From NCBI GenBank assembly GCA_934234005.1, contig CAKQHC010000026.1, forward strand, positions 1 through 16,176: 16,176 nt of DNA, read 5' to 3'. A program made the position numbers and the translations under genes. Shown piece by piece: positions 241 to 14,794 of the stretch. Within the stretch, counting starts at the first letter, position 1; the number at the start of each line of letters is the position of its first letter. Source of the DNA: an uncultured Methanomassiliicoccales archaeon (GTDB taxonomy: Archaea > Thermoplasmatota > Thermoplasmata > Methanomassiliicoccales > Methanomethylophilaceae). The notes beneath the pieces are model-generated. The model worked only from the letters and a program-made list of their open reading frames with translations, was not told the DNA's origin and ran no database searches.

Positions 241-1167
241 ATGGCATTCAAACTGTTCAAAAACGGTGATGACCTCCATGAGAACGGAGACGAACTCATA
301 AAAAGAGGCGAATGGCAGAAAGCCCGCAACGTATTGCAGAAGTCTGTCGACAAAGACGGAGGAGATGATTCTCTAGCCCTTGTAAAAATCGCTCTAATCG
401 ATTTGATGGGACAGCTTAACAATCCTGGAGCATACAGGAACGTTGCATCGAAGGCTGAGGACATAAAAAGTCGCGGTACCATTGACTTCGGTATAACAAC
501 TATAGATCTTTCCGATCTCATTACAGAATGTAAGGTGACCGCACAGAAGTTGGATGTACTAAACAGCGGAAGCAAAGGCAAAGAAAAGTCCGATGCCCTG
601 CAGGCTGTCGCTACCGCAATGGAAGAAAAAATCGGCCAGAAACCATTCATCATCAAACAGATGTTCGCCAACGACAGTACCACTACGGGAGAGACTGAGT
701 TCTACAACCTCATGGCTCTTTCCTACGAAGTGCTGGCGGATGAAGAGGTTTGGAACAATCCGCAAAAAGCTGCAGAGTACCAACAGATTGCGATGGGCTA
801 CCGTCAGCAAAACGGACAATCCGGCGAAGAAAACATGAAACGCATCAAGCAATATTCGTGTACCTCCAAATGCTGGATGTGCGGCAGAATATCTACCGGA
901 GAAGGTATACACTTCTTCCAGACTCCTGCCGATGTTTCAGAAGCACTCAACAGCACCAATGACGGAAATCTGAAATCCGCACCCGACAACGGTCACATTT
1001 ACATCTGTCGCGCATGCTACACTGCGGTATCCAAACGTGCAGACGAAATCTCCACAGGATACTACAACCGTGCTATCGGAGAGATTAGATCCACGGAAGC
1101 CAGGCTTCAGGCGGAAATCGCCGGACTGCAGGCACAGATTACATCACTGAGAATGACGGTGAGATGA
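241..1167 (+). CDS. Helical-repeat (TPR-like) protein with a C-terminal zinc site and coiled coil; first gene of the SPFH operon
   Basis: 308 residues, soluble, with no signal peptide or membrane segment. Residues 5-75 look like TPR-type helical hairpins (short helices around GDELIKRGEWQKARNVL), and a second helical region covers 110-190. A cysteine-rich module follows: C207, C211 and C214, then C256 and C259 about 40 residues later (CWMCGR and CRACY). These two CxxC pairs could hold one zinc ion. Residues 280-308 form a short amphipathic coiled coil (ARLQAEIAGLQAQITSL). I do not recognise the family by name. It is the promoter-proximal gene of a tight operon; its TGA overlaps the start of the next gene. 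A scaffold or adaptor role next to the SPFH protein is an inference from context only. Confidence 0.85.
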   Translation: MAFKLFKNGDDLHENGDELIKRGEWQKARNVLQKSVDKDGGDDSLALVKIALIDLMGQLNNPGAYRNVASKAEDIKSRGTIDFGITTIDLSDLITECKVTAQKLDVLNSGSKGKEKSDALQAVATAMEEKIGQKPFIIKQMFANDSTTTGETEFYNLMALSYEVLADEEVWNNPQKAAEYQQIAMGYRQQNGQSGEENMKRIKQYSCTSKCWMCGRISTGEGIHFFQTPADVSEALNSTNDGNLKSAPDNGHIYICRACYTAVSKRADEISTGYYNRAIGEIRSTEARLQAEIAGLQAQITSLRMTVR

Positions 1168-2711
1168 TGGATGATTTATTGGAGCTCCGTTGCAAACACT
1201 GCGGTGCCCCGCTAGATTCCGAAGACATTCAGTCGGACTCCCAGTATATCAAATGTCAGTACTGTGGCACCAGCCAACAGAGGGTGGATGCCAAAGCGTA
1301 TATGAATCAGATGATGGACCAGATTAAATCCTGGGTCAGCAAATCGATTCCGGGCGGATTCAGCCTTGCTCAGACAGAAAATGTGGATCCGATTGCCAGG
1401 CATAATATCTATGTCAACAATGTAAAACCGGCCATCATGCCGGAAATCAGCGAATTCCGTATCGCGGTAAATACCCTCATGGCCAATCCCCTGATAGTGT
1501 TGCCGTTCACAACGGGATCTCCCGCCAAATCTCAACACAGTTCCTCGCAGGCGTTCGAATTCAATGCCAAACTGAAGAGCATAGAACCTCTGGCAGTGGA
1601 TTCCGAACAAAAGAAAATCATAGTTGATGCAGAAAATCTCTCATCCGCATATGCTTTGATGGTCAACAACCTAAGACTGCTCTCGGAACAAACTGAAGGG
1701 AGATTTGCACTGATGTCCACAAACTTCAAGGATGCAGCAGATTCCATATCGCGCTGTACAGGATACGAAGTGCTTCAAAAACGTCTTGCGGCACTTGCCG
1801 AGATATGTACGGCATCGGACATGGTGCTTAACGGAGATTCTTTGGGGTGCGCCGTAAAAGCCGAAGCGGCCGTCGCACAACTGGAAGAAGCCAAAAAATC
1901 CATCATGAAAACGCCGAGCCTTGCCATGATGCTCAGAGCCATCAACATGGAACTCGCACAGTCCAAGACACTTCTGAGTGCTGCCGACGGCGAAACAAAA
2001 GGTTCCGACGAAGATGCTTTGGAAACTCTCGAATTGCTCGGTAAAATCAAGAAAATCAAATATCCGTCAGTCGGCACATGGGGTGCCGTACTCAGCAAAA
2101 GCGGAAGAGAAAACGAACTGTATCAGTATGCACAAGACATTGAAGCCGCCAAAAACAACGGCACACTGCCCATAGCATCCGGAAGCGGACAGATTCTGTA
2201 TCCGTTCTGGGATGTGGATCTGAAATACAGTTTCACAACAGGGTCTCTCTTCAACAAAAAGGCCGTTGAGGTGTCTGAAGACATTCTCGTTCCGGCCACA
2301 TTCACTCTCGATTTGAACGCACTGTCGTCCGCCAACCGCGGTTTGACAGATATCTTCGGAGCTGCTCCGCAGAGCGGTTTCTTTGATCGCGTCAAAGGCA
2401 ACGAATCGAGCATCAGCAGCAGTGCCGGACTCGGTACCATCGCGGACAGCGTGGCCATGAACCCTCCCGGATCCAGAGAAGTCGTTCTTCCGACCAGCAC
2501 CAAAGCGGATGCAGTCAAACTGGTCAATGAATATCTCAAACAGGTATCATCGTCCCATTCCAAACTGAAACTCAGCAATCCGAATGTGAAGAAGCTGTTC
2601 TATCTGCCGTGCGACCGTTTCGAGAACACCATAAAGGCACCCGTGTCCATGGGCTCTCTGACACCGGCCTGCATATCGATGATAAGCGCCAACAATCTGA
2701 TTATTCTATGA
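1164..2711 (+). CDS. Large protein with an N-terminal zinc ribbon; second gene of the SPFH operon
   Basis: 515 residues. A zinc ribbon sits at the start: CKHC at 10-13 and CQYC at 31-34, as in TFIIB-like or YdjG-like ribbons. The middle (about 125-290) is mostly helical with heptad-like stretches. The C-terminal half has a beta-rich segment with the aromatic signature YPFWDVDLKYSF at 346-357 followed by KKAVEV and LVPATF. Similar aromatic, PAT-containing segments are familiar to me from bacterial zinc-ribbon proteins encoded near SPFH genes, but I cannot place this with certainty. There is no membrane segment. Two in-frame starts are possible, ATG at 1164 (ATGA overlap with the previous stop) and ATG at 1167. 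A GGTGAG just upstream (1159-1164) favours 1167, which drops one methionine. Function unknown; coupled translation suggests fixed stoichiometry with its neighbours. Confidence 0.85.
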   Translation: MMDDLLELRCKHCGAPLDSEDIQSDSQYIKCQYCGTSQQRVDAKAYMNQMMDQIKSWVSKSIPGGFSLAQTENVDPIARHNIYVNNVKPAIMPEISEFRIAVNTLMANPLIVLPFTTGSPAKSQHSSSQAFEFNAKLKSIEPLAVDSEQKKIIVDAENLSSAYALMVNNLRLLSEQTEGRFALMSTNFKDAADSISRCTGYEVLQKRLAALAEICTASDMVLNGDSLGCAVKAEAAVAQLEEAKKSIMKTPSLAMMLRAINMELAQSKTLLSAADGETKGSDEDALETLELLGKIKKIKYPSVGTWGAVLSKSGRENELYQYAQDIEAAKNNGTLPIASGSGQILYPFWDVDLKYSFTTGSLFNKKAVEVSEDILVPATFTLDLNALSSANRGLTDIFGAAPQSGFFDRVKGNESSISSSAGLGTIADSVAMNPPGSREVVLPTSTKADAVKLVNEYLKQVSSSHSKLKLSNPNVKKLFYLPCDRFENTIKAPVSMGSLTPACISMISANNLIIL

Positions 2712-2721
2712 AGGTGAATAA

Positions 2722-3090
2722 ATGTCTGAAAAGAAGGAAATCAACCCGAGGACATTGAATGCCGTATCTCTCGGCGCATTGCTCATAGCCGTGGCAGTCG
2801 GACTCATAATCTATGCCACGACCGAGAATGTTGCCGGAGTAATATGCGCGATCCTTGTCATACTCGGACTGTATCTTGTATGTGCATCGTTCCTCTACAG
2901 CGGGGATAAATCCGGATATGGCCCGTCCACACGCGACATGACCCTTGTATGCGGAACGCTGCTGGTAGCCGTCGGTGCAGCCGTCGGAATCTACACCTAC
3001 ATCGACAGCATCCTGATTATGGTCGCTGTGCTCATAATCATAGTGGCTGTCCTCGGAATCACAATGGCCTTAAAAAACAGAAACGACTGA
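2722..3090 (+). CDS. Small four-helix membrane protein; third gene of the SPFH operon
   Basis: 122 residues with four predicted membrane helices at roughly 13-32, 36-58, 73-92 and 94-116, arranged as two hairpins. A charged loop with KSGYGPSTRD lies between helices 2 and 3, and both termini are short and charged, probably cytoplasmic. A GGTGA Shine-Dalgarno at 2713-2717 lies four bases before the ATG, ten bases after the previous stop. I do not recognise the family. In this operon it is the only integral membrane protein, so it is the natural candidate for anchoring the complex to the membrane; that role is inferred. Confidence 0.85.
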   Translation: MSEKKEINPRTLNAVSLGALLIAVAVGLIIYATTENVAGVICAILVILGLYLVCASFLYSGDKSGYGPSTRDMTLVCGTLLVAVGAAVGIYTYIDSILIMVAVLIIIVAVLGITMALKNRND

Positions 3091-3099
3091 GGAATGAAA

Positions 3100-3639
3100 A
3101 TGGCATTAAACGATACTGTAAGAAATGAAATAAAAGGAGATATGTCTCTTATCTCCAGAATCGCCATGTACATCCCCGGATACAGGGGATACAGGGAGAG
3201 AAACCTCCGCAGAGACGAAGACAGGGCAGTAAGGAACGAACTTGCACGTGCCATATCCGGAGCCAAAAGCGACCTTGCGGAAGCTCAGAGGGAACTTGCT
3301 TCATCCAATCCCGACCTTATGATGGACGTCGAAAGGATAAGAACAAAAGCGGACAGATACCAGACTGATGTGAAAAAAGCGGTCAACGGATACTCCGGTT
3401 TCCTGGACAACGTTAAGATAACAGCCGAGGACTTGGACAGGGTCGTCAAATGGGACGGTCAGCTCGTCGACGACATAGAAGATCTCAGACAGATTACCCA
3501 GACTGTATTGGAAAAGACCGACGACGGATCGCTCACGAAAGCAGACTTGCGTGGAACCGAAAAACTCCTCGACAAAATGATTGAGGACTACGGAGCCAGA
3601 GATGCAGTAATGAAAGGATTTGCCGATAACGGAGAATGA
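3100..3639 (+). CDS. Small coiled-coil protein with a YIPGYRGY motif; fourth gene of the SPFH operon
   Basis: 179 residues from the ATG at 3100; an in-frame ATG at 3094 would add two. I chose 3100 because GAGG at 3089-3092 is seven bases upstream of it but only one base before 3094. The N-terminal part has the run MYIPGYRGYRERNLRRDEDR (window residues about 27-46 of the longer form). I associate this conserved motif with small uncharacterised proteins of archaea and some bacteria. The rest is almost wholly helical and highly charged, with coiled-coil potential over about 50-100 and 110-165. There is no membrane segment. Its size and helical, charged character recall PspA/ESCRT-III-like membrane-remodelling proteins, but I see no sequence motif that proves this. 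Its stop overlaps the first possible start of the SPFH gene. Confidence 0.8.
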   Translation: MALNDTVRNEIKGDMSLISRIAMYIPGYRGYRERNLRRDEDRAVRNELARAISGAKSDLAEAQRELASSNPDLMMDVERIRTKADRYQTDVKKAVNGYSGFLDNVKITAEDLDRVVKWDGQLVDDIEDLRQITQTVLEKTDDGSLTKADLRGTEKLLDKMIEDYGARDAVMKGFADNGE

Positions 3640-3644
3640 TTTAC

Positions 3645-4751
3645 ATGGCTAGCAAAACAAACGTCGTTACATGGGCATCCCAGGGCCCCGAAGACATAAT
3701 CTACGCATACGAACACGACGACCTCAGGACACTGACATCCGTCACAGTCCCCGAGCATGCCGTTGCAATATTCGTCAGAGACGGACAGCTCCAGGGCGTA
3801 TTGGAACCCGGAAGACACATGATAACATCCAACAACATTCCGTGGCTTACCAAGATCTACCAACTGGCTCTCGGATATAAGGAGACCCCGTTCAAAGTCA
3901 TGATCATCTTCGTATCGCTGAAGATGTTCAGCGGAAAATGGGGCATACGCGGTATGATCAAAGCCGCTCAGGAATACGAGGTTCCCGTAACGCTGATGGC
4001 CAACGGCGACTATCAGTTCAGAGTTTCCGATGTGCCCGTGTTCTACACACAGGTCCTCGGAGGGCTCAAGTCGTACACAACCGGCGATGTCAACGCCTTC
4101 ATGAAGGGATTCATCAACGAACAGGTGACCACCCAACTGTCCAAACAGTACTACATGGAGATGCTCAACAACCTCGACAAAGCTTCTACCACCACCAAAG
4201 TACAGGTAGAGCAGTACTTCGCCCAGAGGGGTATCGAACTCCTGTCTCTGAAGATTATAGAAGCAAGGACAACTGAGGAAGACCAGAAGAAGGTATTCGA
4301 GTATCTCCAGTTCAGCAGTTCCCGCGGAGAAGCGTTCAAGAGGTATGAAGTCATGGAAAGAATGGCCGATGCTATCGGAGACTCCACCGGAGGCGCAGCA
4401 ATGGGTGCAGGCATGCTTCTGTTCCCGCAGATGTACCAACAGCTGCAGCAACAGCCTCTCCAGGGCGTACAGGGCCAACAGCAGCAACCCCAAAAGGTCA
4501 TGTGCCCGTTCTGCGGCGGACTCAACGAATATCCGTACAAGTTCTGCGGAAACTGCGGAAAACCGTCCCCTATGATGCAACAGCAGCAACAGGGAGGACA
4601 GGTTCCCCCCGCACAGCCTGCAGCCGCGGCCGCTCCCGCGACCGGAGGACAGGCACCCGCATTCAAGAACTGCCCCTATTGCGGACAGGGACTCGGAATG
4701 CTGCCGAAGACTCCCAAATTCTGCCCGTTCTGCAGCGAACAGCTCTATTGA
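3645..4751 (+). CDS. SPFH/band 7 (prohibitin-stomatin-like) protein with two C-terminal zinc ribbons
   Basis: 368 residues from ATG 3645, or 371 from ATG 3636 (ATGA overlap). GGAG at 3631-3634 is ten bases from 3645 and only one from 3636, so 3645 is preferred. Residues are numbered here from 3636. Residues 20-220 look like an SPFH domain of the YdjI/virion-core-like type (COG4260): an N-terminal AIFVRDGQLQGVLEPGRH segment, a long strand-helix core, and a helix ending in EYLQFSSSRGEAFKRYEVM. A Q-rich linker follows. Two ribbons close the protein: CPFC 290-293 with CGNC near 306-309, and CPYC near 348 with CPFC near 364-367. Family members assemble as oligomers on membranes. There is no obvious transmembrane helix, so membrane contact would be through the SPFH domain or the neighbouring four-helix protein. 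Last gene before a hairpin terminator. Confidence 0.9.
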   Translation: MASKTNVVTWASQGPEDIIYAYEHDDLRTLTSVTVPEHAVAIFVRDGQLQGVLEPGRHMITSNNIPWLTKIYQLALGYKETPFKVMIIFVSLKMFSGKWGIRGMIKAAQEYEVPVTLMANGDYQFRVSDVPVFYTQVLGGLKSYTTGDVNAFMKGFINEQVTTQLSKQYYMEMLNNLDKASTTTKVQVEQYFAQRGIELLSLKIIEARTTEEDQKKVFEYLQFSSSRGEAFKRYEVMERMADAIGDSTGGAAMGAGMLLFPQMYQQLQQQPLQGVQGQQQQPQKVMCPFCGGLNEYPYKFCGNCGKPSPMMQQQQQGGQVPPAQPAAAAAPATGGQAPAFKNCPYCGQGLGMLPKTPKFCPFCSEQLY

Positions 4752-4757
4752 TCAAAC

Positions 4758-4785
4758 CGGGGCTGCGGCCCCGTTCTTCCGATTT
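4758..4785 (+). terminator. Hairpin terminator after the SPFH operon
   Basis: CGGGGC at 4758-4763 and GCCCCG at 4768-4773 form a perfect six-pair GC stem with a four-base loop. It is followed by a pyrimidine-rich stretch ending in TTTTT at 4783-4787. It begins seven bases after the SPFH stop codon. Confidence 0.6.
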
Positions 4786-4867
4786 TTCCCGTAACAAACG
4801 GTGCGTTCCGACACTGCCCCGTACGAATGCCCGCACTTGCGTCCTGACAGGATTTTTACCTGCATTG

Positions 4868-4876
4868 TATTATAAT
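4868..4876 (+). promoter_or_regulatory. TATA box for apt
   Basis: TATTATAAT is centred about 26 bases before the ATG at 4899. This predicts a leaderless apt transcript and excludes the upstream in-frame ATG at 4875, which overlaps the TATA box itself. Confidence 0.6.
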
Positions 4877-4898
4877 GCAGTTACACACTTTCCGTGTC

Positions 4899-5423
4899 AT
4901 GAAGAAGCTGGAAGACTATGTTACGTCGATTCCCGACTTTCCAAAGCCCGGAATTCTGTTCAGAGACGTAACATCCATCGTCAACGACGCCGACGGTCTC
5001 AAACTCGCCATAGACGGTCTGATATCCAACGCCGAAAGCATGCATCCCGACATCATTATGGGTTCGGAATCACGCGGATTTATTTTCGGATGTCCCGTGG
5101 CATACGCCCTCAACAAAGGATTCGTTATGGCACGCAAAAAAGGAAAACTCCCCAGAGAGACCATATCCGAAGAATATGCGCTCGAATACGGTACTGCCTC
5201 ATTGGAGATACACACAGACTCCATAAAACCGGGGCAGAGAGTCGTAATTATCGATGACCTCATCGCTACCGGAGGCACCGTTGATGCCATGGTAAAACTC
5301 GTAGAAAGGGAAGGAGGCATAGTGGCCGGAATCCTGTTCGTTATGGAACTGAAAGGTCTGAAAGGCCGCGAAAAACTGAAAGGATACGATGTCCGTTCGC
5401 TCATTGAATACGAAGGTGCCTGA
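4899..5423 (+). CDS. apt: Adenine phosphoribosyltransferase
   Basis: 174 residues. The enzyme converts adenine and PRPP to AMP and pyrophosphate in purine salvage, in the cytoplasm. The protein starts MKKLEDYVTSIPDFPKPGIL, the classic Apt N-terminus including the FPKPGI loop. It has the GSESRGFIFG substrate loop (about 55-64) and the PRPP-binding signature VVIIDDLIATGGT (about 115-127). Length is normal for the family. An ATG 24 bases upstream (4875) would add eight residues, but it lies in the promoter. Archaeal Apt-like proteins can prefer other purines (hypoxanthine or guanine), but this one resembles the bacterial Apt type. The next gene begins directly after its TGA, so the two are cotranscribed. 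Confidence 0.95.
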   Translation: MKKLEDYVTSIPDFPKPGILFRDVTSIVNDADGLKLAIDGLISNAESMHPDIIMGSESRGFIFGCPVAYALNKGFVMARKKGKLPRETISEEYALEYGTASLEIHTDSIKPGQRVVIIDDLIATGGTVDAMVKLVEREGGIVAGILFVMELKGLKGREKLKGYDVRSLIEYEGA

Positions 5424-5924
5424 ATGAAAGTTATCAGCGACGGAATAGTCGACGGAAAAATTCTGGACAGGTACGGATCCAAAGGGTCGGATTTTGTAGC
5501 AGACATGCCGTCTCTCTCCCTTCCTGTCCGTATCGAAGATGCACCGAAAGGAACGAAAAGTTTTGCTGTCGTGTTCGACGACTACGATGCCGTGCCTGTC
5601 AGCGGATTCTGCTGGATTCATTGGATTCTGTGCGATTTGAAATCGACCGAGATTCCCGAAGGTGCATCCGGCAAATCTGATGATTTTGTGGAAGGGTGCA
5701 ACAGTTGGCACGGTGCATTCGACAGGCTGTCAGCAGAACAGTCTTCAAGATACGGCGGACCCGCTCCTCCCAACCGCATGCACAGATACACCCTCAAAGC
5801 CTATGCCCTGGACTGCGAACTCGGTCTTGAAAAAGGATTCATGATGAACGACCTATTCTTCGCCATGCAAGGCCATGTTCTAGGTCACGCAATGACCGTC
5901 GGCGAATACTCGCCCAAAAACTGA
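5424..5924 (+). CDS. PEBP / YbhB-YbcL family Raf-kinase-inhibitor-like protein
   Basis: 166 residues. The phosphatidylethanolamine-binding protein fold is shown by FAVVFDDYDAVP at 47-58, where other members have a DPDAP-type motif, by the strand GFCWIHWILCDL at 61-72, and by YGGPAPPNRMHRY at 110-122, which corresponds to the YGGPxPPxxxHRY ligand-pocket signature. There is no signal peptide. The biochemical role of prokaryotic members is unclear. The ATG abuts the apt stop codon (TGAATG), with AAGGTG at 5413-5418 as ribosome binding site, so translation is likely coupled to apt. The 3' end lies six bases from the convergent tRNA-Arg. Confidence 0.92.
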   Translation: MKVISDGIVDGKILDRYGSKGSDFVADMPSLSLPVRIEDAPKGTKSFAVVFDDYDAVPVSGFCWIHWILCDLKSTEIPEGASGKSDDFVEGCNSWHGAFDRLSAEQSSRYGGPAPPNRMHRYTLKAYALDCELGLEKGFMMNDLFFAMQGHVLGHAMTVGEYSPKN

Positions 5925-5930
5925 ACGATG

Positions 5931-6003
5931 CGGCCCTGCCGGGATTCGAACCCGGGTCATTGGTTCCGAAGTCCAACAGGATAATCCGCTACCCTACAGG
6001 GCC
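5931..6003 (-). tRNA. tRNA-Arg (anticodon TCG)
   Basis: On the minus strand the acceptor arms GGCCCTG and CAGGGCC pair fully, and the T arm CCGGG-TTCGAAT-CCCGG is canonical. The anticodon loop is CTTCGGA, giving TCG (arginine, CGA codons). The stem TTGGA/ACCAA leaves an A-A mismatch at 31-39. Discriminator is G and no CCA is encoded. No intron. A short T run (complement of 5916-5920) lies just past the 3' end, inside the end of the PEBP gene. Confidence 0.92.
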
Positions 6004-6027
6004 GTCATCCCACCCATAATCGGTGAA

Positions 6028-6036
6028 CTTTATAGT
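6028..6036 (-). promoter_or_regulatory. TATA box for tRNA-Arg(TCG)
   Basis: On the minus strand ACTATAAAG lies 25-33 bases before the tRNA 5' end, the expected archaeal spacing. The region 6004-6111 between the divergent tRNA and hypE contains both promoters. Confidence 0.5.
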
Positions 6037-6082
6037 ATCTCCGCATAGACTCCCGTCGGCAACGGTGTTTCCAGCACAATCG

Positions 6083-6090
6083 CTATAAAC
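6083..6090 (+). promoter_or_regulatory. TATA box for hypE
   Basis: CTATAAAC is centred about 25 bases before the hypE ATG at 6112 and no Shine-Dalgarno is present, so the hypE transcript is probably leaderless. Confidence 0.55.
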
Positions 6091-6111
6091 GGAATCGCAG
6101 GTTTCGGATTC

Positions 6112-7158
6112 ATGTCAAAGGTGATTATGAACCACGGTGCGGGCGGAGAGCTCATGCAGGAGTTCCTCTCCAAGCACATCACCAATCATTTTCCCAAAAT
6201 GAATGCAGAGGTCCCTCTGGATTCCATGGATGACTCCGCCGTTGTGGATGACATTGTTTTCACCATCGACGGACATACCGTCAAACCGCTGTTTTTCCCC
6301 GGCGGAGATCTCGGAAAAATATCCGTTGCCGGAACCGTCAACGACATTTCCGTTATGGGTGCAACCCCGTTAGGAATCGGATGTTCTGTCATTATCGAAG
6401 AGGGCCTTGACATAGAAACAGTGGACAAAGTTATGGACAGCATGGGAAAAACTGCCGCAGGGTGCGGTGTGCCCATAGCCACCGGCGATACGAAAGTCGT
6501 AGAGAACGGCGCCGTAGATAAAATGGTGATGTCTACCTCCGCCATAGGCAAAAGATCGAAATACCTTGATTCTGACCTTGCCAAAGCCGGAGAATACAGG
6601 AAAATCGACCACCGCTGGTGTACCGATTCCAATGTCAGACCCGGAGATGCAATTATCGTATCCGGATATGTCGGAGACCACGGGGTTGCCCTGCTGTCGT
6701 TCCGCGAAGGATACGGATTCGAAAGCGAAATCCAGAGCGACGTTGCTCCTTTGAACAACATGATTGCGGAAGGTCTTAAAGCCGGAGGTATCGTTGCCAT
6801 GAAAGACCCTACGCGCGGAGGATTGGCCAACACCCTCAACGAATGGTGTTCGAAATCCCACATAGGTATGGAAATAGAATATTCTTCCATACCTCTCAGA
6901 GACGGAGTCGTCAACGCATGCGATCTTCTGGGCATAGACCCGCTGAGCATAGGAAACGAAGGAAAAGCCGTTATAGGAGTGGTTCCGGATTTGGCCGAAG
7001 ATGTTCTGAAAGCTATCCGCAACACCCCGGAAGGCAGGAATGCCGCCATAATCGGATATGCCGTCGACGGACCAGAAAGAGTCGTTCTGAAAACAGAAGT
7101 CGGCGGACGCAGGATTCTGGAAGCACCCGCAGGCGATCCGGTCCCGAGGATCTGCTGA
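6112..7158 (+). CDS. hypE: Hydrogenase maturation protein HypE
   Basis: 348 residues. HypE takes the carbamoyl group made by HypF on its C-terminal cysteine and dehydrates it, using ATP, to a thiocyanate that supplies the CN ligand of [NiFe]-hydrogenase. The protein ends in PRIC, with the essential terminal cysteine C348. The AIR-synthase-like fold is shown by HGAGGELM (8-15), DSAVVDD (41-47), FFPGGDLGKISVAGTVNDIS (61-80), GDTKVVE (125-131) and KDPTRGGLAN (231-240). The segment around 147-172 appears longer than usual. No hypF, hypC, hypD or hydrogenase gene is in the window, so it sits apart from its partners here. Confidence 0.97.
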   Translation: MSKVIMNHGAGGELMQEFLSKHITNHFPKMNAEVPLDSMDDSAVVDDIVFTIDGHTVKPLFFPGGDLGKISVAGTVNDISVMGATPLGIGCSVIIEEGLDIETVDKVMDSMGKTAAGCGVPIATGDTKVVENGAVDKMVMSTSAIGKRSKYLDSDLAKAGEYRKIDHRWCTDSNVRPGDAIIVSGYVGDHGVALLSFREGYGFESEIQSDVAPLNNMIAEGLKAGGIVAMKDPTRGGLANTLNEWCSKSHIGMEIEYSSIPLRDGVVNACDLLGIDPLSIGNEGKAVIGVVPDLAEDVLKAIRNTPEGRNAAIIGYAVDGPERVVLKTEVGGRRILEAPAGDPVPRIC

Positions 7159-7170
7159 GGTAACAAGCCA

Positions 7171-7178
7171 CTTATAGG
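7171..7178 (+). promoter_or_regulatory. TATA box for the DUF1015 gene
   Basis: CTTATAGG is centred about 26 bases before position 7200. That would give a leader of about ten bases carrying the AGGTGA ribosome binding site at 7199-7204, four bases before the ATG at 7209. Confidence 0.45.
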
Positions 7179-7208
7179 CGCATCATATCGTCCGAAACAG
7201 GTGAATCA

Positions 7209-8396
7209 ATGGTCGGATTCCTTCCATTCAAAGGCTATAGGCCCAACATAAGAGCCGGAGAGCACATCGGAGACCGTATATCCCCGCCGTATGACGTAAT
7301 AAGCGGAGATTATCTTGCCGAACTTCAGTCCAAAGAATTCAACGTTACGAATCTCACACTGAAACAGGACTCCGACAAGAGATACCACGGTGCCAGAAAA
7401 ACGCTGGATTCCTGGATAGAATCCGGTGCGCTGAAACAGGACGGCCCCTCGTTCTACATTTATGAGCAGACTTTCGAAGACAAGGGCACCGAATATGTCC
7501 GCAAAGGTATAGTCGGCATACTCAAGACGGAAAAATACGAGGAAGGCCACATCATGCCGCATGAGGAGACGTTCTCCAAGGTCAAAGCCGACCGTCTTAA
7601 TCTTCTCAGGGACATGGAAGCCCACCTCGAGTCCATATTCGGAATCTTCGAGGGATTCACGCCCGAGCTGACCAGGAAAATAAACGACAATGCACACCTT
7701 GTCTACAGATATGTCGATTCGGCCGGAGTCGAGCACAAATACTACAGACTCTCGGACGAATCCGTAAACAATGAGATTACCGAACAGCTGAAAGATCAGA
7801 AAATGCTCATAGCCGACGGACACCACAGATACGAAACGGCTTTGAATTATTCTCTGGAAAATCCCGACGATCCCGCCAAAGGATATGTTCTTGCCACATT
7901 GGTTGCCTCGAACGACAGCGGACTGGTCATCTGGCCGACCCACCGCCTGGTGGATACGGGAAATATCTCCGAGAAAAATGCCATCAAAGGTATATCAAAA
8001 GCTCTTGAGATTACCGAAACCACCGAAGAAGAGATGGAATCGGAACTGAAGAATCATATGATGGGTCTGATGTTCAGGTCCGGAAAATGCTTCCTTGCCG
8101 ATTATAAGGGAGAAGAGGGCACCCTGTGGACTCTCGACACATATGTCGTACAGGAAAAAATTCTCAAAGGCGTGTACAAATCCGATGAGGACAAAGCTAC
8201 CGTATCATACGATGCGGAACTTTCTTCGGTGAAAGAATCTATGGCCGAGGGAAAACACGATTTGGCGATTGTACTCAACAACCCATCCCTTCAGACCATA
8301 TGGGATTTGGCAAAGGCAGGCAAACGCATGCCGAAGAAGACCACATTCTTCTTCCCGAAGATTTGGTCGGGTTTTGTCTTCTATCTAATGAGATAA
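7209..8396 (+). CDS. DUF1015 family protein
   Basis: 395 residues, soluble. It opens with FLPFKGYRPN followed by a DRISPPYDVIS segment, typical of DUF1015 proteins. It carries the family's most conserved stretch ADGHHRYETALNY at 202-214 and ends with MPKKTTFFFPKIWSGFVFY, also typical. Length is normal. The family is widespread in bacteria and methanogens, sometimes near serine and glycine metabolism genes, but its activity is not firmly known to me; the paired histidines of the GHHRYE motif suggest an enzyme. It has its own promoter after hypE and a strong hairpin terminator. Confidence 0.93.
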   Translation: MVGFLPFKGYRPNIRAGEHIGDRISPPYDVISGDYLAELQSKEFNVTNLTLKQDSDKRYHGARKTLDSWIESGALKQDGPSFYIYEQTFEDKGTEYVRKGIVGILKTEKYEEGHIMPHEETFSKVKADRLNLLRDMEAHLESIFGIFEGFTPELTRKINDNAHLVYRYVDSAGVEHKYYRLSDESVNNEITEQLKDQKMLIADGHHRYETALNYSLENPDDPAKGYVLATLVASNDSGLVIWPTHRLVDTGNISEKNAIKGISKALEITETTEEEMESELKNHMMGLMFRSGKCFLADYKGEEGTLWTLDTYVVQEKILKGVYKSDEDKATVSYDAELSSVKESMAEGKHDLAIVLNNPSLQTIWDLAKAGKRMPKKTTFFFPKIWSGFVFYLMR

Positions 8397-8410
8397 AACC
8401 GGTGTAAACA

Positions 8411-8449
8411 GGTCCGTTATGAGCGTCATATAACGGACCCGAACTTTTC
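8411..8449 (+). terminator. Hairpin terminator after the DUF1015 gene
   Basis: GGTCCGTTAT (8411-8420) and ATAACGGACC (8430-8439) form a perfect ten-pair stem with a nine-base loop, followed by a T-rich stretch (CTTTTCTTT). It begins 15 bases after the stop codon. Confidence 0.65.
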
Positions 8450-8477
8450 TTTCCGCATGATTTGACGGCAGCATCAA

Positions 8478-8518
8478 ATTTACTGTTTTGAAAAATACTA
8501 TTTTGAAAAATAGTAAAT
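8478..8518. repeat. Tandem 15-mer with a palindrome, next to the ATPase remnant
   Basis: The 15-mer TACTGTTTTGAAAAA (8481-8495) is repeated at once as TACTATTTTGAAAAA (8496-8510), with one difference. The second copy runs into a perfect inverted repeat: TACTATTTT (8496-8504), a two-base spacer, then AAAATAGTA (8507-8515). An outer pair ATTTACT (8478-8484) and AGTAAAT (8512-8518) is also inverted. The element lies at the point where the truncated ATPase reading frame begins, so it may mark a deletion or insertion junction or be a protein-binding site. Confidence 0.7.
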
Positions 8519-9172
8519 ACTGAACAAAGAGTCCATACTTCTTTTCGCAGAGGAGTTTGAGTCTCCCGTAACATACTTCGATGTTATATCTGCAATTGCC
8601 AAAGGGCATAACAGAGTGGACGAAATAGCATCCGATACAGGATTGGAAACATCCCGCGTATCCGTATTGCTGAAAGAGCTTATTGCATTGGAAATCGTAG
8701 ATAAAATCAAACCGATTGACGACCCGGGGTCCAAACGCACATACTATAGAATTAAAGACCACTACATACGTTCATTCTTCAGATTTATCTACCCAGACAA
8801 TACAGATGTCAGCATCAGAGATTATGAAAGAGTGTATAACAGCATAACCGAGTGCATGAATGAGTACCTCGACCATGTATTCGAGAACGTATGCTCCGAA
8901 TATATTGAAAAAGAATGTTACGAAGTCGGTACGTGGCGGGGTACCGATCCCATAAGCCGTACCAAGGAAGAAATCGACATTGCGGCTCGGGAAACGGATA
9001 CATAACATTATGCGAATGCAAATACCGCTCCGAACCCGTAAACGGCGATGTTATAAACACTCTTGTCAGACGCTCCAAACTCGTAAAGAATAACCTTCCG
9101 CGTAAATTGAAGATCTTTTCCAAATCGGGTTACACAGACGGCGCGATAATAAAAGCAAAATCCGAAATATAG
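8517..9172 (+). pseudogene. Remnant of an archaeal ATPase (winged helix plus DUF234), headless and frameshifted
   Basis: The open frame begins at 8517, just after an in-frame TAA, with no suitable start. Its first part (RVDEIASDTGLETSRVSVLL) is the winged helix that follows the P-loop ATPase domain in archaeal DUF234 proteins. The next part has the DUF234 motif GTWRGTDP and EEIDIAA, up to TAA at 9003-9005. The continuation, LCECKYR and onward, is in the next frame and ends in TAG at 9170-9172. A single base lost near 8995-9000 explains the shift, since reading GAAACGGA one frame over rejoins the two parts without a gap. The whole ATPase domain (about 230 residues, with Walker motifs) is absent. 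Function of the intact family is unclear; it is often multicopy in archaea. Confidence 0.85.
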
Positions 9173-9226
9173 AACTGTATACCCTTGACGATGTTGCTCA
9201 TAATTAATGACTAAAAACATGAATGG

Positions 9227-9298
9227 AGCCGCCGATGGGAATCGAACCCACGACCTATGCCTTACCAAGGCATCGCTATACCCCTTAGCCACGGCGGC
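9227..9298 (-). tRNA. tRNA-Thr (anticodon GGT)
   Basis: On the minus strand the acceptor arms GCCGCCG and CGGCGGC pair fully. The D arm GCTA/TAGC, anticodon arm ATGCC-TTGGTAA-GGCAT and T arm GTGGG-TTCGATT-CCCAT are all canonical. Anticodon GGT reads ACC and ACU. Discriminator T, no encoded CCA, no intron. A T5 run (complement of 9213-9217) follows the 3' end and may end transcription. Confidence 0.95.
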
Positions 9299-9324
9299 GT
9301 GTGTAAATTGGGGTAGCAACACCC

Positions 9325-9334
9325 CATTAATAAG
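9325..9334 (-). promoter_or_regulatory. TATA box for tRNA-Thr(GGT)
   Basis: CTTATTAATG on the minus strand lies 27-36 bases before the tRNA 5' end. A GGGGT/ACCCC inverted repeat (9310-9325) lies between the box and the gene. Confidence 0.45.
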
Positions 9335-9348
9335 TGTTTTGATTGGAC

Positions 9349-9368
9349 CCAGCCCCGAATGGGGCCGG
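9349..9368 (-). terminator. Possible terminator hairpin after the MMPL transporter
   Basis: GCCCC (9352-9356) and GGGGC (9361-9365) form a five-pair stem with a GAAT loop, extended by two further pairs past a mismatch. It is downstream of the transporter on the minus strand, but no T tract follows it, so termination is only plausible. Confidence 0.35.
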
Positions 9369-9404
9369 TAAGAAGTTTCACCGTAATTCGCAGGGTGTTA
9401 CGGT

Positions 9405-11981
9405 TCAGTTCTCAGATTCCGAATCGATTTTTTTCTTTCCGGGACCCTTCCAGCTCCAGTCTCCCATGAGATGCATGAGAGCGGGAACCACATACGGGAC
9501 CACGAACAGCGAATCGACAAGGATTGCAAATCCGAGCGCAAATCCGATTTCCTGAAGCATAGCGGATCCGGAGATAAGCAGCGTCAGGAACGTACCGCCC
9601 ATGATGAGTCCGCACAGCGTGATTATAGGTCCGGACTTCTCAAGAGCCGCGGTTATAGCTTCGTCGTTGGAGAGGCCTTTGGTCTTTCCTTCTCTGATAC
9701 GCGTAGTTACAAGGATATCGTAGTCCATTCCGAGACCGAGGCATATAACGAACAGTACTATGGGCACAATCCAGACTATGTCTTTGGAGAGGAGGGATCC
9801 GAACACAAGGTGCAGCAGACCGAGAGTCCATACGACACTCATCATAATCGTAGCAAGAGATCTGACAGGAGTGAAGTAGGATCTGAGGACCACGAACAGC
9901 AACACGTAGATCAGAATCATGACTCCGACTTCGATGTAGTTGAACTCCTTATTGACAACATCGGATATGTCGTAAAGGACTGCGGCGGTTCCGAGAACCC
10001 AGGTTCCGGTAATCCAGTCGTATCCGTTCTCGGAAATTGTCGAGGAGATTACATCCCTTGCGTTACCGATAGAATCCATGGATGCAACTGACATGGGCTC
10101 ATCCTTAACGACAATCATAGACTGAACATATGTTCCGTCGGCAGAGATGAGACCTGCTCCGACGTTAACGGAGTAGTCGATGAGATTCATGATGTCAACA
10201 GACATTGCACCGAGCGAAATTGTGTCTGTAGGCGCCATCTTCATGATTTCTTTTCCGGATGCATCGTGTCCCATACCGTCCAATCCGTTGGTGAAGAATT
10301 CCTTGAGCTTGAGCGTAACTGCATCGGGAAGTTCTCCTGATTTTAGAATCGCATTGTTAACCACTTCAGGATGTGCCTGCACATATGCAGCAGCGACAGC
10401 TTCGTCCATTCCTCCTTCTACCATTGTCTTAACAACCAATGCAGAAGCAGTCTTGTATATTGTCGCCCAGGGTGTAGGTCCGAGAGCGTAACTGACATTC
10501 TCGTCGTTAGCTTCGATTTTACTGTTGATCGTACTGATTCCCGTCAGATATTCGGTAGCGTTGGAATTCCATACGAGAGTACCATACTGGGTATTTGGAA
10601 TGGGCGTAATCGTTGCAACCGGGTTTTCAAGCTGGAAAAGAGCATATGTGGGCATGACCATTCCGCCGTCGGCGTAATCGGTCATGACGCCGACTCCTTC
10701 TTTGGCTTCGCTGTCGGGCATGACGGAAACCATATCAAATGACGTATCTGATGTGAATGCCACATATCCGAGAGGTACAGTCAGCAAAATTGCTGCAACT
10801 ACAACCGGAACAGCATGTTTGGTAGAGAATTTTCCTGCGGCTCTGAAGTATTTCTTTCCGAAACCTACAAGCTTGCTGTATGCTCCCTTTGTACGCATGG
10901 GGCTTCCGGCTGTATAGGACTCGATTGTCCTGGGCCAGAAAATCTTGTCTCCGACAACCGCGAGTATTGCGGGAACGAGCGTAAGTGCTGCGAGCATCGC
11001 GAGAACGATACCCAATGCAAGGACGATAGCCATCGTGCGGATGAGCATGAATGAACAGCATGACATGACTGCAAATCCGATGATAACTGCGAGACCGGAT
11101 GTGAACACAGACTCTCCTGCCCATTTGACGGCTTCGGTAAGAGCTGTTTCCTTATCGTGTCCGAGCTTACGCTCCTCTCTGTATCTGGATATGATGAAGA
11201 TTGAATAATCGCAACCTGCTCCGAGCATGGAAACCAGGACGATTGTCTTTGTGATATAGAATATATCAAGGAACTGACCGAGTGCAAAGGTCAGTGCAAG
11301 AACGACTCCGTATGCGGTACCTACGACCAGCGGAGGTGCAAGTGCGGTTACAAGAGTCCAGAAGAACAGGCCGAGCAACAGAATGATCAGAAGAATGGAT
11401 ATGGGATCGACTTTCTTCACATCGTCGTTTGCTCCCTGAAGGGTATCATATGTAATTGCAGCAGAACCGGTAACATAAGACTTCATGTCGGATATTCCGG
11501 CTGCTTCTTTGGCATCGGCAACCATTTCTCTGATGGTTCCCGTTTCATCGGATACGGTTATTCCAGAATTGGGATTGAATCCGACTGCAATGATGTATAC
11601 TCCTTCTTTGGATGCGTCGGTCTTAGAATAGAATCCCAATACGCTGGTACTTGCTTTATCATCGTATTTTTCGGTGACTTTGGCATCAATAATCGAAGCG
11701 ATGGAATCCGAGCCGGTTTTTTCCAAATCTGCTCTTTCACCTGCATCGGTGTATGGGAATGCTATTACCATATCTGTATTCAGTCCGCCGGCGAAATTGG
11801 CGTCGACGATGTCCTGTCCGTCACCGGACTCGGACGAGAAGCCTCCCATGGAGGTCATATCGTAGTTGAGGACATCCTCTGCCTGTGCCGCAAAAGGCAA
11901 AGCACAGATCAGAGCAACAATCCAAACGGCGATGATAGCCTTTGGGTGCTTCATGACATGTTTTGCGTAATTCTCGAACAT
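9405..11981 (-). CDS. MMPL/RND-superfamily exporter
   Basis: 858 residues in the two-fold RND layout. Helix 1 is at about 15-33, followed by an extracytoplasmic domain (about 35-190), helices 2-6 (about 193-345), a cytoplasmic linker, helix 7 (about 390-408), a second large outer domain (about 410-655), helices 8-12, and a lysine-rich tail. Each half has the MMPL motif in helix 4 or its counterpart: GAGCDYSIFIISRYREE from 254, and GLGMDYDILVTTRIREG from 749. D258 and D753 are the likely proton-relay aspartates. These transporters use the ion gradient to export lipids or hydrophobic compounds; the substrate here is unknown. It is transcribed away from a TetR-family regulator across a shared control region with two operator-like repeats, so induction by a ligand is likely. 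Confidence 0.95.
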   Translation of the reverse strand: MFENYAKHVMKHPKAIIAVWIVALICALPFAAQAEDVLNYDMTSMGGFSSESGDGQDIVDANFAGGLNTDMVIAFPYTDAGERADLEKTGSDSIASIIDAKVTEKYDDKASTSVLGFYSKTDASKEGVYIIAVGFNPNSGITVSDETGTIREMVADAKEAAGISDMKSYVTGSAAITYDTLQGANDDVKKVDPISILLIILLLGLFFWTLVTALAPPLVVGTAYGVVLALTFALGQFLDIFYITKTIVLVSMLGAGCDYSIFIISRYREERKLGHDKETALTEAVKWAGESVFTSGLAVIIGFAVMSCCSFMLIRTMAIVLALGIVLAMLAALTLVPAILAVVGDKIFWPRTIESYTAGSPMRTKGAYSKLVGFGKKYFRAAGKFSTKHAVPVVVAAILLTVPLGYVAFTSDTSFDMVSVMPDSEAKEGVGVMTDYADGGMVMPTYALFQLENPVATITPIPNTQYGTLVWNSNATEYLTGISTINSKIEANDENVSYALGPTPWATIYKTASALVVKTMVEGGMDEAVAAAYVQAHPEVVNNAILKSGELPDAVTLKLKEFFTNGLDGMGHDASGKEIMKMAPTDTISLGAMSVDIMNLIDYSVNVGAGLISADGTYVQSMIVVKDEPMSVASMDSIGNARDVISSTISENGYDWITGTWVLGTAAVLYDISDVVNKEFNYIEVGVMILIYVLLFVVLRSYFTPVRSLATIMMSVVWTLGLLHLVFGSLLSKDIVWIVPIVLFVICLGLGMDYDILVTTRIREGKTKGLSNDEAITAALEKSGPIITLCGLIMGGTFLTLLISGSAMLQEIGFALGFAILVDSLFVVPYVVPALMHLMGDWSWKGPGKKKIDSESEN

Positions 11982-11996
11982 AGTCGTTCACACTTC

Positions 11997-12010
11997 TTGA
12001 ACGTGCTCAA
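11997..12010. promoter_or_regulatory. Operator copy 1 for the TetR regulator (TTGAACGTGCTCAA)
   Basis: Near-palindromic 14-mer differing at one base from the copy at 12034-12047. It covers the predicted transcription start of the MMPL gene, so bound repressor would block initiation. Confidence 0.65.
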
Positions 12011-12019
12011 TTTACATGT

Positions 12020-12029
12020 GATATATAAG
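12020..12029 (-). promoter_or_regulatory. TATA box for the MMPL exporter
   Basis: On the minus strand CTTATATATC predicts a start near 11995, leaving a leader of about 14 bases before the ATG at 11981. The core TATATA is self-complementary and could also serve the divergent TetR gene with a leader of about 80 bases. A weaker box for that gene may be CATTAAAAAA at 12087-12096. Confidence 0.55.
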
Positions 12030-12033
12030 TTTG

Positions 12034-12047
12034 TTGAACATGCTCAA
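12034..12047. promoter_or_regulatory. Operator copy 2 for the TetR regulator (TTGAACATGCTCAA)
   Basis: Second near-palindromic 14-mer, 37 bp centre to centre from copy 1. It lies upstream of the exporter TATA box, where the BRE and TFB would bind, and between the box and the TetR gene, so it could serve both exporter repression and autoregulation. Confidence 0.65.
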
Positions 12048-12128
12048 CGAATAGTAACGAAGCAAAATACGGGGCGGACTGAAAGCATTAAAAAACAAAA
12101 ACGACAAATCAAAGGTTGCTGAGGGAAT

Positions 12129-12797
12129 ATGACGCCTATAACAAAAAAAAGCCGCGCCGAGAAACGCGAAAATCTCAGAAACGAGATACTAAAGGCATCG
12201 GTAGAGCTTTTTATCGAACAAGGGTATGAGAAAACAACCACCAGACAAATCCTCCAAAAAGTATGCATTCTCAACGGAAGTCTGTACAATATATTCCGCA
12301 GTAAAGAGGAAATTTTCACTGCAGTGATGATCGATGCACTGACTGAATCCATGAACGAAGCCGAGAAATATCTGGGAGGGAGCATAACTCCGCTTGACCG
12401 TGTCGCATTCCCGATATGCATGGAGATTTATGCCGCATCCCGTTCCACAAGGATTGCGGGACTTTTGGCAATATCGAATAAGAAATGGGATATCATGAAT
12501 TCCGCCTGCGAAATGCTCACGACATGGATACGCGAGCGCGACACAGACAAAATTTTCGTCGGTAACGAAAACAGTTTCAAAATCAAAATGATGGCATTCA
12601 TCGGTGCAATGGGGAACGTCATAGAACGCTTCGAAAAAGAACCGGATGCAATGACTGCATCGGAAACTGCCCATATTCTGTTCAAGATTCTTGTATCCAC
12701 GTTTGATATTCATGCCGATAATCTCCAGGAAAGAGCAGATTATATGCTTGACATCATATCGAAGAATGAAATCCGTATATGCGGCGTCATAATCTGA
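12129..12797 (+). CDS. TetR/AcrR-family transcriptional regulator
   Basis: 222 residues. The N-terminal DNA-binding domain is clear: ILKASVELFIEQGYEKTTTR (20-39), then the helix-turn-helix around 37-56 ending in GSLYNIFRSKEEI (50-62). The remaining all-helical domain is divergent, as usual for ligand-binding parts of this family. GAGGGA at 12121-12126 sits just before the ATG. It is divergent from the MMPL exporter, and the two matching operators between them point to local repression relieved by an exported or toxic compound. The identity of the ligand cannot be read from the sequence. Confidence 0.93.
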   Translation: MTPITKKSRAEKRENLRNEILKASVELFIEQGYEKTTTRQILQKVCILNGSLYNIFRSKEEIFTAVMIDALTESMNEAEKYLGGSITPLDRVAFPICMEIYAASRSTRIAGLLAISNKKWDIMNSACEMLTTWIRERDTDKIFVGNENSFKIKMMAFIGAMGNVIERFEKEPDAMTASETAHILFKILVSTFDIHADNLQERADYMLDIISKNEIRICGVII

Positions 12798-12807
12798 AAC
12801 CAACACT

Positions 12808-12817
12808 ATCTTTATCC
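12808..12817 (+). promoter_or_regulatory. Possible TATA box for rqcH
   Basis: ATCTTTATCC is centred about 28 bases before the ATG at 12841, which would give a leaderless or nearly leaderless message. A GGGGGTG at 12833-12839 abuts the start too closely to be an ideal ribosome binding site. Confidence 0.35.
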
Positions 12818-12840
12818 GTTTCCTCCGATGTAGGGGGTGT

Positions 12841-14775
12841 ATGAAGAAAGAGATGAGTTCGTTCGACGTACGTTCGATTGTAACGGAACTCTCGGCGCTC
12901 GAAGGCGCCCACATGGACAAGATCTATCAATGGGGATCCGGCAACGTACTGTTCCGTCTGAACGTTCAGGGTGCGGGAAAAAAAGATCTCTTTTTCAAAG
13001 ATAGAAAATGGCTGTATTGCCCGTCGGTTAAACCTGAAACTCCGACAACCCCTACATCGTTTGCCACATTCTTGAGAAAATACATCGACAACGCCCGTAT
13101 AGGAAAAATCAGGCAGATCGGTTTCGACCGTGTAATCGAAATGCAGCTCTTCAAAGGCGACGGCGAATATCAGCTCGTTTTTGAAATGTTCGGCGGAGGA
13201 AACGTCCTGCTGAACAAAGACGGAAAAATCGTTAACTGTCTCATACACAAAACCATGAGGGACCGTGCAACAAGGCCCGGCGAAGATTACGTCTCCCCCA
13301 AACCGAGGTTCGATCCCACATCGTCCTCGGAAGAAGAATTCATAGAATGCTTCAGAACATCGGATGCCGATACTGTCAGAACCCTGGCAACGGCAGTCAA
13401 TCTCGGAGGGCAGTATGCGGAAGAAATCTGCGTACGTTCGGAAATCGGAAAAAACACGCCTTCTTCCGAAATTACCGACGGACAGCTGTCCCGCATGTAC
13501 TCCGAGATGAAGATTATCGTTACCAAAGTGCTGTCCGCTCCGGAACCTACCGCATGGTTTAAAGACGGTCAGATCGAAGATTTTGCCCCGGTGGAATTGG
13601 TTTCGCGTTCCGAAATGGAGTCTAAACGTTACGATACGGCATCATCATGCATCGAATCTTATCTCGAACAGATTGCCGATGCCGAGGAAGAGGCATACGT
13701 CGATCCAGAAATAGAAAAACTGAACAGAAGAATTGCAAAGCAGGAAGAAACTCTGGACGAATACAAGGTGGAATGCGATGCACAGAAACGCAAAGCCGAA
13801 GCACTGTACACCGAATACGCAAAAACAAGCGAACTCCTGAATGTTCTGAACGAACAGTCCAAGAAGCTCACCTGGGACAAACTGTCCGAAGGCGCTATGA
13901 AGATTCCGTTTGTCACATCCATCGATCCTTCCAAAAACACCGTAACCGCCACTTTGGCAGAAGAGTCCGTCACCCTCGACTACACACAAAACCTCGATGC
14001 AAACGCATCGATACTGTATCAGAAAGGAAAGGACATCGGCGAAAAAGCCAAACGTGCGGAAGAAGCCCTCAATGAAAGCAAAGCCGAGCTTGCGAAGAAG
14101 CAGAAAGGTATTGATAAGGCTAAAGCCGCAATGGCAGGAAAGGCGCAACCCACCAAACAATTCTGGTTCGAAAGATACAAATGGTTCATAACATCGGGCG
14201 GAAAGCTTGTTGTGGCCGGAAGAGATGCACACACAAACGACAACGTAGTAAAGAAACACCTCAAAGACGGAGATCTGTTCGCCCATGCCGACGTGCACGG
14301 GGCCCCTTCCACGATTATAAAAGAAGGAAGCAAAGCGAACAACGATGAACTCAGAGAGGCCTGTCAGTTCGCACTTGCACAATCCAAATCATGGATTGCA
14401 AAATTGGCAGAAGGCAGTGCATTCTGGGTATATCCGGATCAAGTGAGTAAAACACCCAATCCCGGAGAATTTGTACCGAGAGGAGCATTCATCATACGCG
14501 GAAAAAGGAACTACGAATACCACCTGCCCATCGAACTCGTTGTCGGAGAGGTTTATTATCAGGGTTCCAGAAAAGTGATGTGCGGACCCGCGGAATGTTT
14601 CAAAGACTGCGACCGTTACTTCGTAATACGTCCCGGAAAGGGATCTTCCAGAAAATCTGCCGAAATGGCCAAGAAATTCCAGGTTCCCGAAGAAGAAGTT
14701 TCCAGAATATTGCCTCCCGGAGATGTGGAGATTATAAAAGAGGTCTGGCCGAAAGACGAAGCTGACTCGGAGTAA
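12841..14775 (+). CDS. rqcH: NFACT-family protein RqcH (Rqc2/NEMF homologue), ribosome quality control
   Basis: 644 residues. Homologues bind large ribosomal subunits still carrying peptidyl-tRNA and recruit tRNA to extend the stalled chain with a C-terminal tail (alanine in bacteria) that marks it for decay. The NFACT-N domain (about 1-170) keeps D9 in the FDVR motif and the D96-R97 pair in GFDRVIE, corresponding to the residues needed for tailing in yeast Rqc2 and Bacillus RqcH. A helix-hairpin-helix region follows (about 175-260), then coiled coils (about 275-340 and 395-430). The NFACT-R domain covers about 435-545 with KQFWFERYKWFITSGG (439-454) and AHADVHGA (481-488). An alternative start at 12853 would shorten it by four residues. 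Confidence 0.95.
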   Translation: MKKEMSSFDVRSIVTELSALEGAHMDKIYQWGSGNVLFRLNVQGAGKKDLFFKDRKWLYCPSVKPETPTTPTSFATFLRKYIDNARIGKIRQIGFDRVIEMQLFKGDGEYQLVFEMFGGGNVLLNKDGKIVNCLIHKTMRDRATRPGEDYVSPKPRFDPTSSSEEEFIECFRTSDADTVRTLATAVNLGGQYAEEICVRSEIGKNTPSSEITDGQLSRMYSEMKIIVTKVLSAPEPTAWFKDGQIEDFAPVELVSRSEMESKRYDTASSCIESYLEQIADAEEEAYVDPEIEKLNRRIAKQEETLDEYKVECDAQKRKAEALYTEYAKTSELLNVLNEQSKKLTWDKLSEGAMKIPFVTSIDPSKNTVTATLAEESVTLDYTQNLDANASILYQKGKDIGEKAKRAEEALNESKAELAKKQKGIDKAKAAMAGKAQPTKQFWFERYKWFITSGGKLVVAGRDAHTNDNVVKKHLKDGDLFAHADVHGAPSTIIKEGSKANNDELREACQFALAQSKSWIAKLAEGSAFWVYPDQVSKTPNPGEFVPRGAFIIRGKRNYEYHLPIELVVGEVYYQGSRKVMCGPAECFKDCDRYFVIRPGKGSSRKSAEMAKKFQVPEEEVSRILPPGDVEIIKEVWPKDEADSE

Positions 14776-14784
14776 TCTTCGATA

Positions 14785-14794
14785 ACTATATAAT
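14785..14794 (+). promoter_or_regulatory. TATA box for the small membrane protein gene
   Basis: ACTATATAAT predicts a transcription start near 14816, 25 bases before the ATG at 14841. Confidence 0.55.

Follow-up and report, generated by a model that had tools for sequence, protein, structure and literature searches.

Psp domains of any kind are absent from over half of the 915 archaeal genomes in the survey by Popp et al. (PMC9239133, in the part available), which raises the question by what means many archaea keep their membranes intact. We asked what kind of system is encoded by five tightly spaced plus-strand open reading frames (ORFs), the last of them for an SPFH protein, at positions 241–4751 of a 16,176-nucleotide stretch of DNA (the window; contig CAKQHC010000026.1) from an uncultured Methanomassiliicoccales archaeon. 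The operon is a real, conserved archaeal system, similar in kind to that of the Bacillus subtilis SPFH protein YdjI and lacking PspA. It is apparently undescribed: in literature searches on SPFH proteins in Methanomassiliicoccales and Thermoplasmata, on YdjI/PspA and on LIMLP_15305, which covered few subscription papers, the titles and abstract openings among the matches listed did not describe it. New here are the division into two modules, the dyad of gene 4 and the SPFH gene, which recurs in the class and once in a bacterial genome, the position of gene 4 where Bacillus has PspA, and the folds of gene 1 (TPR-like) and gene 2 (possibly Bro1-like); the initial annotation had the modules, the dyad and these folds not yet.

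Gene order is conserved in near relatives

Consecutive ORFs of the operon overlap by 4 bases, are separated by 10 and then 3 bases, and overlap again by 4, so that the five same-strand genes with overlaps or gaps of at most ten bases described in the initial annotation are borne out by the coordinates. The nearest named proteins belong to Candidatus Methanomethylophilaceae and related archaea, and the carriers of the operon are methanogens from guts and termites, together with their relatives. When each species was represented by one genome, 64 loci were obtained, of which two with bacterial zinc-ribbon matches only (L063 and L064) were dropped. Gene 1 adjoins gene 2 upstream in 59 of the 61 loci with room, and in the remaining two (L055 and L057) gene 1 is in place and gene 2 is broken. 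For the downstream count, gene 2 had to be full-length and to have over 1.3 kb of sequence beyond it, which left 49 of the 62 loci; genes 4 and 5 come after gene 2 in this order in all 49, as does gene 3 in 46. The median gaps between the profile matches of consecutive genes are 4, 15, 4 and 8 bases, and gene 2 of the near loci is about 40–62% identical to that of the window. This conservation of order far exceeds chance, and the co-occurrence survey that had been proposed as a check found the genes kept together in near relatives. The pairwise distances of the five proteins also correlate over 43 loci (41 for gene 3), with Mantel r of 0.68–0.91 and 0 of 500 permutations reaching any of the ten values, as co-inheritance of the five as one unit would predict; common descent by itself raises r too.

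Some loci are irregular. An in-frame TAG interrupts gene 2 in L055 (2373–2375). It may be an assembly error, or a codon for pyrrolysine, a reading of TAG that is possible in relatives of this order. In Methanomethylophilus sp. 1R26 (L057, 7983–12049), genes 2 and 5 are split over several frames, probably by sequencing errors. Three metagenomic ORFs (P0062, P0074 and P0077) extend beyond gene 2 into gene 3 or, in a shifted frame, into gene 4, and one genome (G244) contains two copies of the operon (L012 and L062), one of which lacks gene 3.

The SPFH protein and the membrane protein

Gene 5 (3636–4751; like the other parts of the operon, on the plus strand) encodes a 371-aa protein without a transmembrane segment, and starts conserved in relatives suggest that its true start is 3645. 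The SPFH domain (Band_7_1, PF13421; 3723–4298) was recognized by Pfam at E 1.2e-22, with 81 bits against a cut-off of 24, in keeping with the SPFH identity proposed initially. The Band_7_1 profile also matches Bacillus subtilis among the controls, and the SPFH profile of gene 5 gave no match to solved structures at E 0.01. The C-terminal part contains two zinc ribbons (C290/293/304/307 and C346/349/363/366; 4503–4733) joined by a linker rich in Q, A and P. The first is invariant in 26 of 26 chosen rows and the second is conserved at 90% or more, which agrees with the two zinc modules expected at this end of the protein.

The sole membrane protein of the operon is the 122-aa product of gene 3 (2722–3090), the four-helix protein of the initial annotation. 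Four hydrophobic segments are found in 51 of 53 aligned members and three in the other two, and the products of genes 1, 2, 4 and 5 of the window have no such segment.

Gene 4 lacks detectable homology to PspA

Gene 4 (3094–3639) encodes 181 aa, and its start is probably 3100, as suggested by the starts conserved in relatives. It had been described as a charged coiled-coil protein; 37% of its residues are charged and it is predicted to be helical, with two helical hairpins in the predicted model (mean predicted local distance difference test score, pLDDT, 82). The motif IPGYRGYRERNLRRDEDRAVR (3172–3234) includes P28, Y33, R40, D43 and R47, all invariant in 29 rows. In the GYSG turn (3388–3399), G99 and Y100 are invariant in 29 archaeal rows, and the residue at Y100 differs in the bacterial member.

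The closest named family is LIMLP_15305 of Leptospira (NCBIfam NF047596). At E 1 its profile matches every one of the 52 members scanned, with E 2.2e-12 at best and 7.4e-6 for the window; these members, alignment A3, comprise the protein of the window, those of 38 out of 51 loci and 13 of the 120 proteins listed. For four distant archaeal members E was between 7e-13 and 1.2e-8, and for the bacterial one 0.0023. The similarity extends over most of the length of gene 4, whereas the window protein scores 25.9 bits, far under the equivalog cut-off of 210 bits; a wider homology between the two families is supported by these profile matches despite this low score. In the accessible part of one paper, LIMLP_15305 is named beside a non-coding RNA (PMC7567364).

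A Pfam scan found no PspA match among the five products. PspA (PF04012) was matched in none of the 69 genomes carrying gene 2, versus 9 of 14 controls, and Snf7/ESCRT-III (PF03357) in none of the 69, where only 1 of 14 controls matched and this below the cut-off. The identification of gene 4 itself as PspA was rejected: comparison with a thin profile of two PspA sequences gave a probability of 0.1–1.8%, on a scale where unrelated pairs scored 0.3 to 8% and no positive control was run. Gene 4 occupies a position like that of PspA in Bacillus, with no detectable homology to it.

Zinc modules and possible folds of genes 1 and 2

The 308-aa product of gene 1 (241–1167) combines a TPR-like N-terminus with a short coiled coil and a C-terminal four-cysteine zinc module (C211-x2-C214 and C256-x2-C259; 871–1017). 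The module had been pointed out initially, and its four cysteines are indeed invariant in 27 of 27 chosen rows (the window, 9 of 62 near loci and 17 of 20 distant loci). The possible fold of the N-terminus had been overlooked. The gene 1 profile (A5) matched repeated engineered TPRs at E 2.5e-11 when summed over the repeats, with no single stretch passing, and YrrB at E 0.0034 in one stretch; the single sequence reached only E 0.04 with Pfam TPR_2. We tentatively call gene 1 TPR-like.

Gene 2 (1164–2711) codes for 515 aa, in which an N-terminal zinc ribbon (C10/C13/C31/C34; 1191–1265) is followed by a helical solenoid and a C-terminal part of mixed alpha/beta structure, without a transmembrane segment. 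The ribbon cysteines, noted before as an N-terminal zinc module, are invariant in 25 of 25 chosen rows. The solenoid (residues about 48–286; 1305–2021) has a weak fold resemblance to Bro1 domains (HD-PTP, BROX and Bro1), which is suggestive only. The likeness is confined to this part, and the zinc ribbon and the alpha/beta part fall outside it. When 44 members were scanned at E 10 (alignment A4: the window, 34 out of 55 loci and 9 of the 120 proteins listed), Bro1 was absent among the best 25 of 41 families, and the gene 2 profile matched nothing among solved structures better than E 0.81.

Two separable modules

The gene 2 profile, beyond its zinc ribbon, matches 70 of 400 genomes of the class Thermoplasmata, 72 of 147 of the order and 28 of 292 in a sample of the phylum; ribbon-only matches were set aside in 12 of 82, 16 of 88 and 40 of 68 cases. 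In the bacterial phylum reached through a Prosthecobacter record, which we take to be Verrucomicrobiota, the profile matched 4 of 188 genomes, and all four matches were ribbon-only and set aside too. The 69 genomes used for the PspA, SPFH, Snf7 and co-occurrence counts are the 70 of the class minus one fragment (G310).

Gene 4 is more widespread: its broad profile matches 285 of 400 genomes of the class and 1 of 194 of the bacterial phylum. Among the listed gene 4 matches we chose 20 further loci, one of them bacterial, and in all 20 an SPFH gene lies directly downstream. Within 3 kb and on the same strand, 15 of the 19 archaeal loci also have an ORF that contains four to six hydrophobic segments. 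Because of this adjacency and the recurrence of the multi-transmembrane ORF, we take gene 4 and the SPFH gene, often with such an ORF, as the wider module; the second one consists of genes 1 and 2. Seen from the other side, gene 4 lies directly upstream in 16 of 20 SPFH regions from genomes with gene 2; three of the other four (L115–L118) are second SPFH genes and L115 is the only one of its genome, G011. Gene 4 is present in 64 of 69 genomes with gene 2 versus 221 of 331 without (Fisher p 3.5e-6, uncorrected for kinship). A plasmid search with one distant gene 4 sequence gave no match.

Genes 1 and 2 are adjacent in all 20 distant loci. The full five genes occur in two of these (L083 and L086), and in three others (L077, L078 and L096) gene 2 is followed immediately by an SPFH gene, with no gene 4 nearby. 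The joined five-gene form prevails in the relatives of the window.

The bacterial locus (G592) consists of gene 4 and an SPFH gene with a SHOCT tail, followed by TPR, DUF4178 and potassium-channel genes. DUF4178 and the potassium channel are described in PspA operons in the portion of Ravi et al. available (PMC11237479). This one locus supports the reading that gene 4 replaces PspA in a scaffold of the same type.

Other neighbours were seen as well. A 917–1506 aa ORF, which may be a larger client adaptor, lies upstream of the multi-transmembrane/gene 4/SPFH module in L099, L101, L102, L109, L111 and L112; in L111, the only one scanned, it is TPR by Pfam. In the first five of these loci a 329–340 aa ORF with four CxxC motifs comes after the SPFH gene, and in L111 Pfam identifies it as a zinc ribbon. 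The neighbourhood is of a third type on a Paracoccus plasmid (L149), where the SPFH gene lies two genes past one for a toxic anion resistance protein.

Comparison with known SPFH systems

In B. subtilis, YdjG and YdjH are needed for the membrane localization of the SPFH protein YdjI, which in turn is required to place PspA there (PMC8581546, in the text available). Gene 5 resembles YdjI in having a C-terminal zinc ribbon and no membrane anchor of its own, and the archaeal operon shares with pspA-ydjGHI the arrangement of such a soluble protein in a single operon with a helical partner, an integral membrane partner and a zinc-ribbon partner. Unlike pspA-ydjGHI, it has no PspA and an extra TPR-like zinc gene, its zinc-ribbon partner has no transmembrane segment, and a Pfam scan of its five products at E 1 gave no match to a YdjH-like TPM domain. 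The initial annotation had viewed the operon as an archaeal counterpart built from partly different parts. The SPFH protein, the conserved operon and the missing PspA (0 of 69) fit this description; the frequent occurrence of genes 1 and 2 without the rest and the lack of a TPM match speak against accepting it in full.

Archaeal Meth_adaptin loci, in the part of Makarova et al. (2024, PMC10936438) at hand, also hold an SPFH-coiled-coil-zinc-ribbon protein, but they are Vps4-based ESCRT systems with an adaptin-like part. The Pfam scan of the five operon products matched neither a Vps4-type or other AAA ATPase nor ESCRT-III. Bacterial SPFH-DUF4178-DUF350-polyamine operons likewise combine an SPFH protein with small helper proteins, and the gene 4-SPFH-TPR-DUF4178 locus of G592 resembles them; unlike these, the archaeal operon has no polyamine enzymes.

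A possible mechanism and its alternatives

By analogy with Bacillus, we tentatively propose that the five products build a scaffold at the membrane which would function as the PspA-YdjGHI complex does, minus PspA; we consider this the best explanation and quite possible. The SPFH subunits would assemble at the cytoplasmic face into a ring or cage, which the four-helix product of gene 3 would hold at the membrane in the role of YdjG/H. The hairpin protein of gene 4 would be recruited or organized by the scaffold in the place of PspA and act on or stabilize the bilayer. The products of genes 1 and 2 may be zinc-stabilized TPR-like and solenoid adaptors that deliver a client or signal to the scaffold, most simply as an addition to the wider multi-transmembrane/gene 4/SPFH module.

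Several observations weigh against this proposal. Gene 4 has no detectable relationship to PspA or ESCRT-III, and a membrane role is therefore only surmised from where the gene lies. As 3 of 49 loci lack gene 3, its product is not indispensable as an anchor. Genes 1 and 2 are apart from the SPFH gene in 15 of 20 distant loci, two of which (L081 and L082) end about 1 kb beyond gene 2. Two near genomes, G011 and G204, hold genes 1 and 2 without genes 3, 4 and 5 beside them (L150 and L151), and these two, of 47 class genomes with a near-type gene 2, have no gene 4 match anywhere; G204 has no SPFH match at all, and the SPFH gene of G011 is on another contig (L115). Such distant and near cases mean that genes 1 and 2 can act alone. 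In addition, the five-gene form is found in G193 and G388, outside the list of matches of the order.

One alternative, which we find rather unlikely, is a quality-control platform for membrane proteins, in which an SPFH cage gathers clients and genes 1 and 2 serve as chaperone-like receptors that pass them to a protease encoded elsewhere. HflK/C and prohibitin form SPFH cages and are the model for such a platform; HflK/C have a membrane segment, unlike gene 5, and no protease or ATPase was matched among the five products. The TPR-like N-terminus of gene 1, the constancy of genes 1 and 2 as a soluble pair and the lack of any matched regulator domain in the operon speak for it, as does the chaperone-like role of band-7 and other PspA partners supported in the available portion of Ravi et al. 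(PMC11237479). The operon could also be a housekeeping one with a common promoter and no complex, its conservation reflecting co-regulation only. The modules do separate in other Thermoplasmata and in the two near genomes, but this explanation is unlikely in view of the identical order in 49 of 49 loci whose gene 2 has diverged to about 40–62% identity, and of the gene 4-SPFH adjacency retained in a bacterium.

Equally improbable to us is an ESCRT-like remodelling system, in which gene 2 as a Bro1-type adaptor and gene 4 as a highly diverged filament-former would bend or cut the membrane in division or vesicle formation. An anti-viral defence or abortive-infection operon seems very improbable. 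SPFH and zinc-ribbon proteins do occur in conflict loci, and an SPFH gene lies beside mobile genes on a Butyrivibrio plasmid, but gene 4 is widespread (285 of 400 genomes) and the protein distances are congruent, unlike patchy defence islands. Assignment to a defence system was rejected for lack of a convincing PADLOC match, the best one (E 0.0015) being a generic TPR.

A broader picture can be drawn, which is possible but doubtful: Thermoplasmatota might maintain their membranes with a machine that is independent of PspA and has the undescribed helical-hairpin family of gene 4 as effector of its SPFH cage. In Methanomassiliicoccales-type archaea this machine would be coupled to a TPR-like/Bro1-like zinc adaptor pair and so form an archaeal SPFH-Bro1 membrane system parallel to ESCRT and Psp. 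The presence of PspA in Bacillus and gene 4 here suggests that SPFH scaffolds swap their helical partner. Because this SPFH system is broadly conserved and has a defined partner other than PspA, it offers five concrete proteins and one recurrent dyad to study.

Flanking sequences and neighbouring genes

The initial annotation had also predicted one leaderless promoter and one terminator, and neither was confirmed. An A/T-rich box (209–240), possibly an archaeal promoter, lies about 22–31 bases ahead of the ATG of gene 1 in the window. Across 60 upstream regions, the window included, the A/T content is maximal at −40 to −36, which suggests a short leader; a leaderless start is not established. 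A GC hairpin at about 4757–4773 with a T-run some 10 bases further (together 4757–4787) is a weak terminator candidate after gene 5; the terminator scan did not accept it. Further downstream (4875–15498), Pfam identifies a phosphoribosyltransferase, PEBP, AIRS (presumably HypE-like), DUF1015, DUF234, an MMPL exporter, a TetR regulator and NFACT, and the window also contains three tRNAs.

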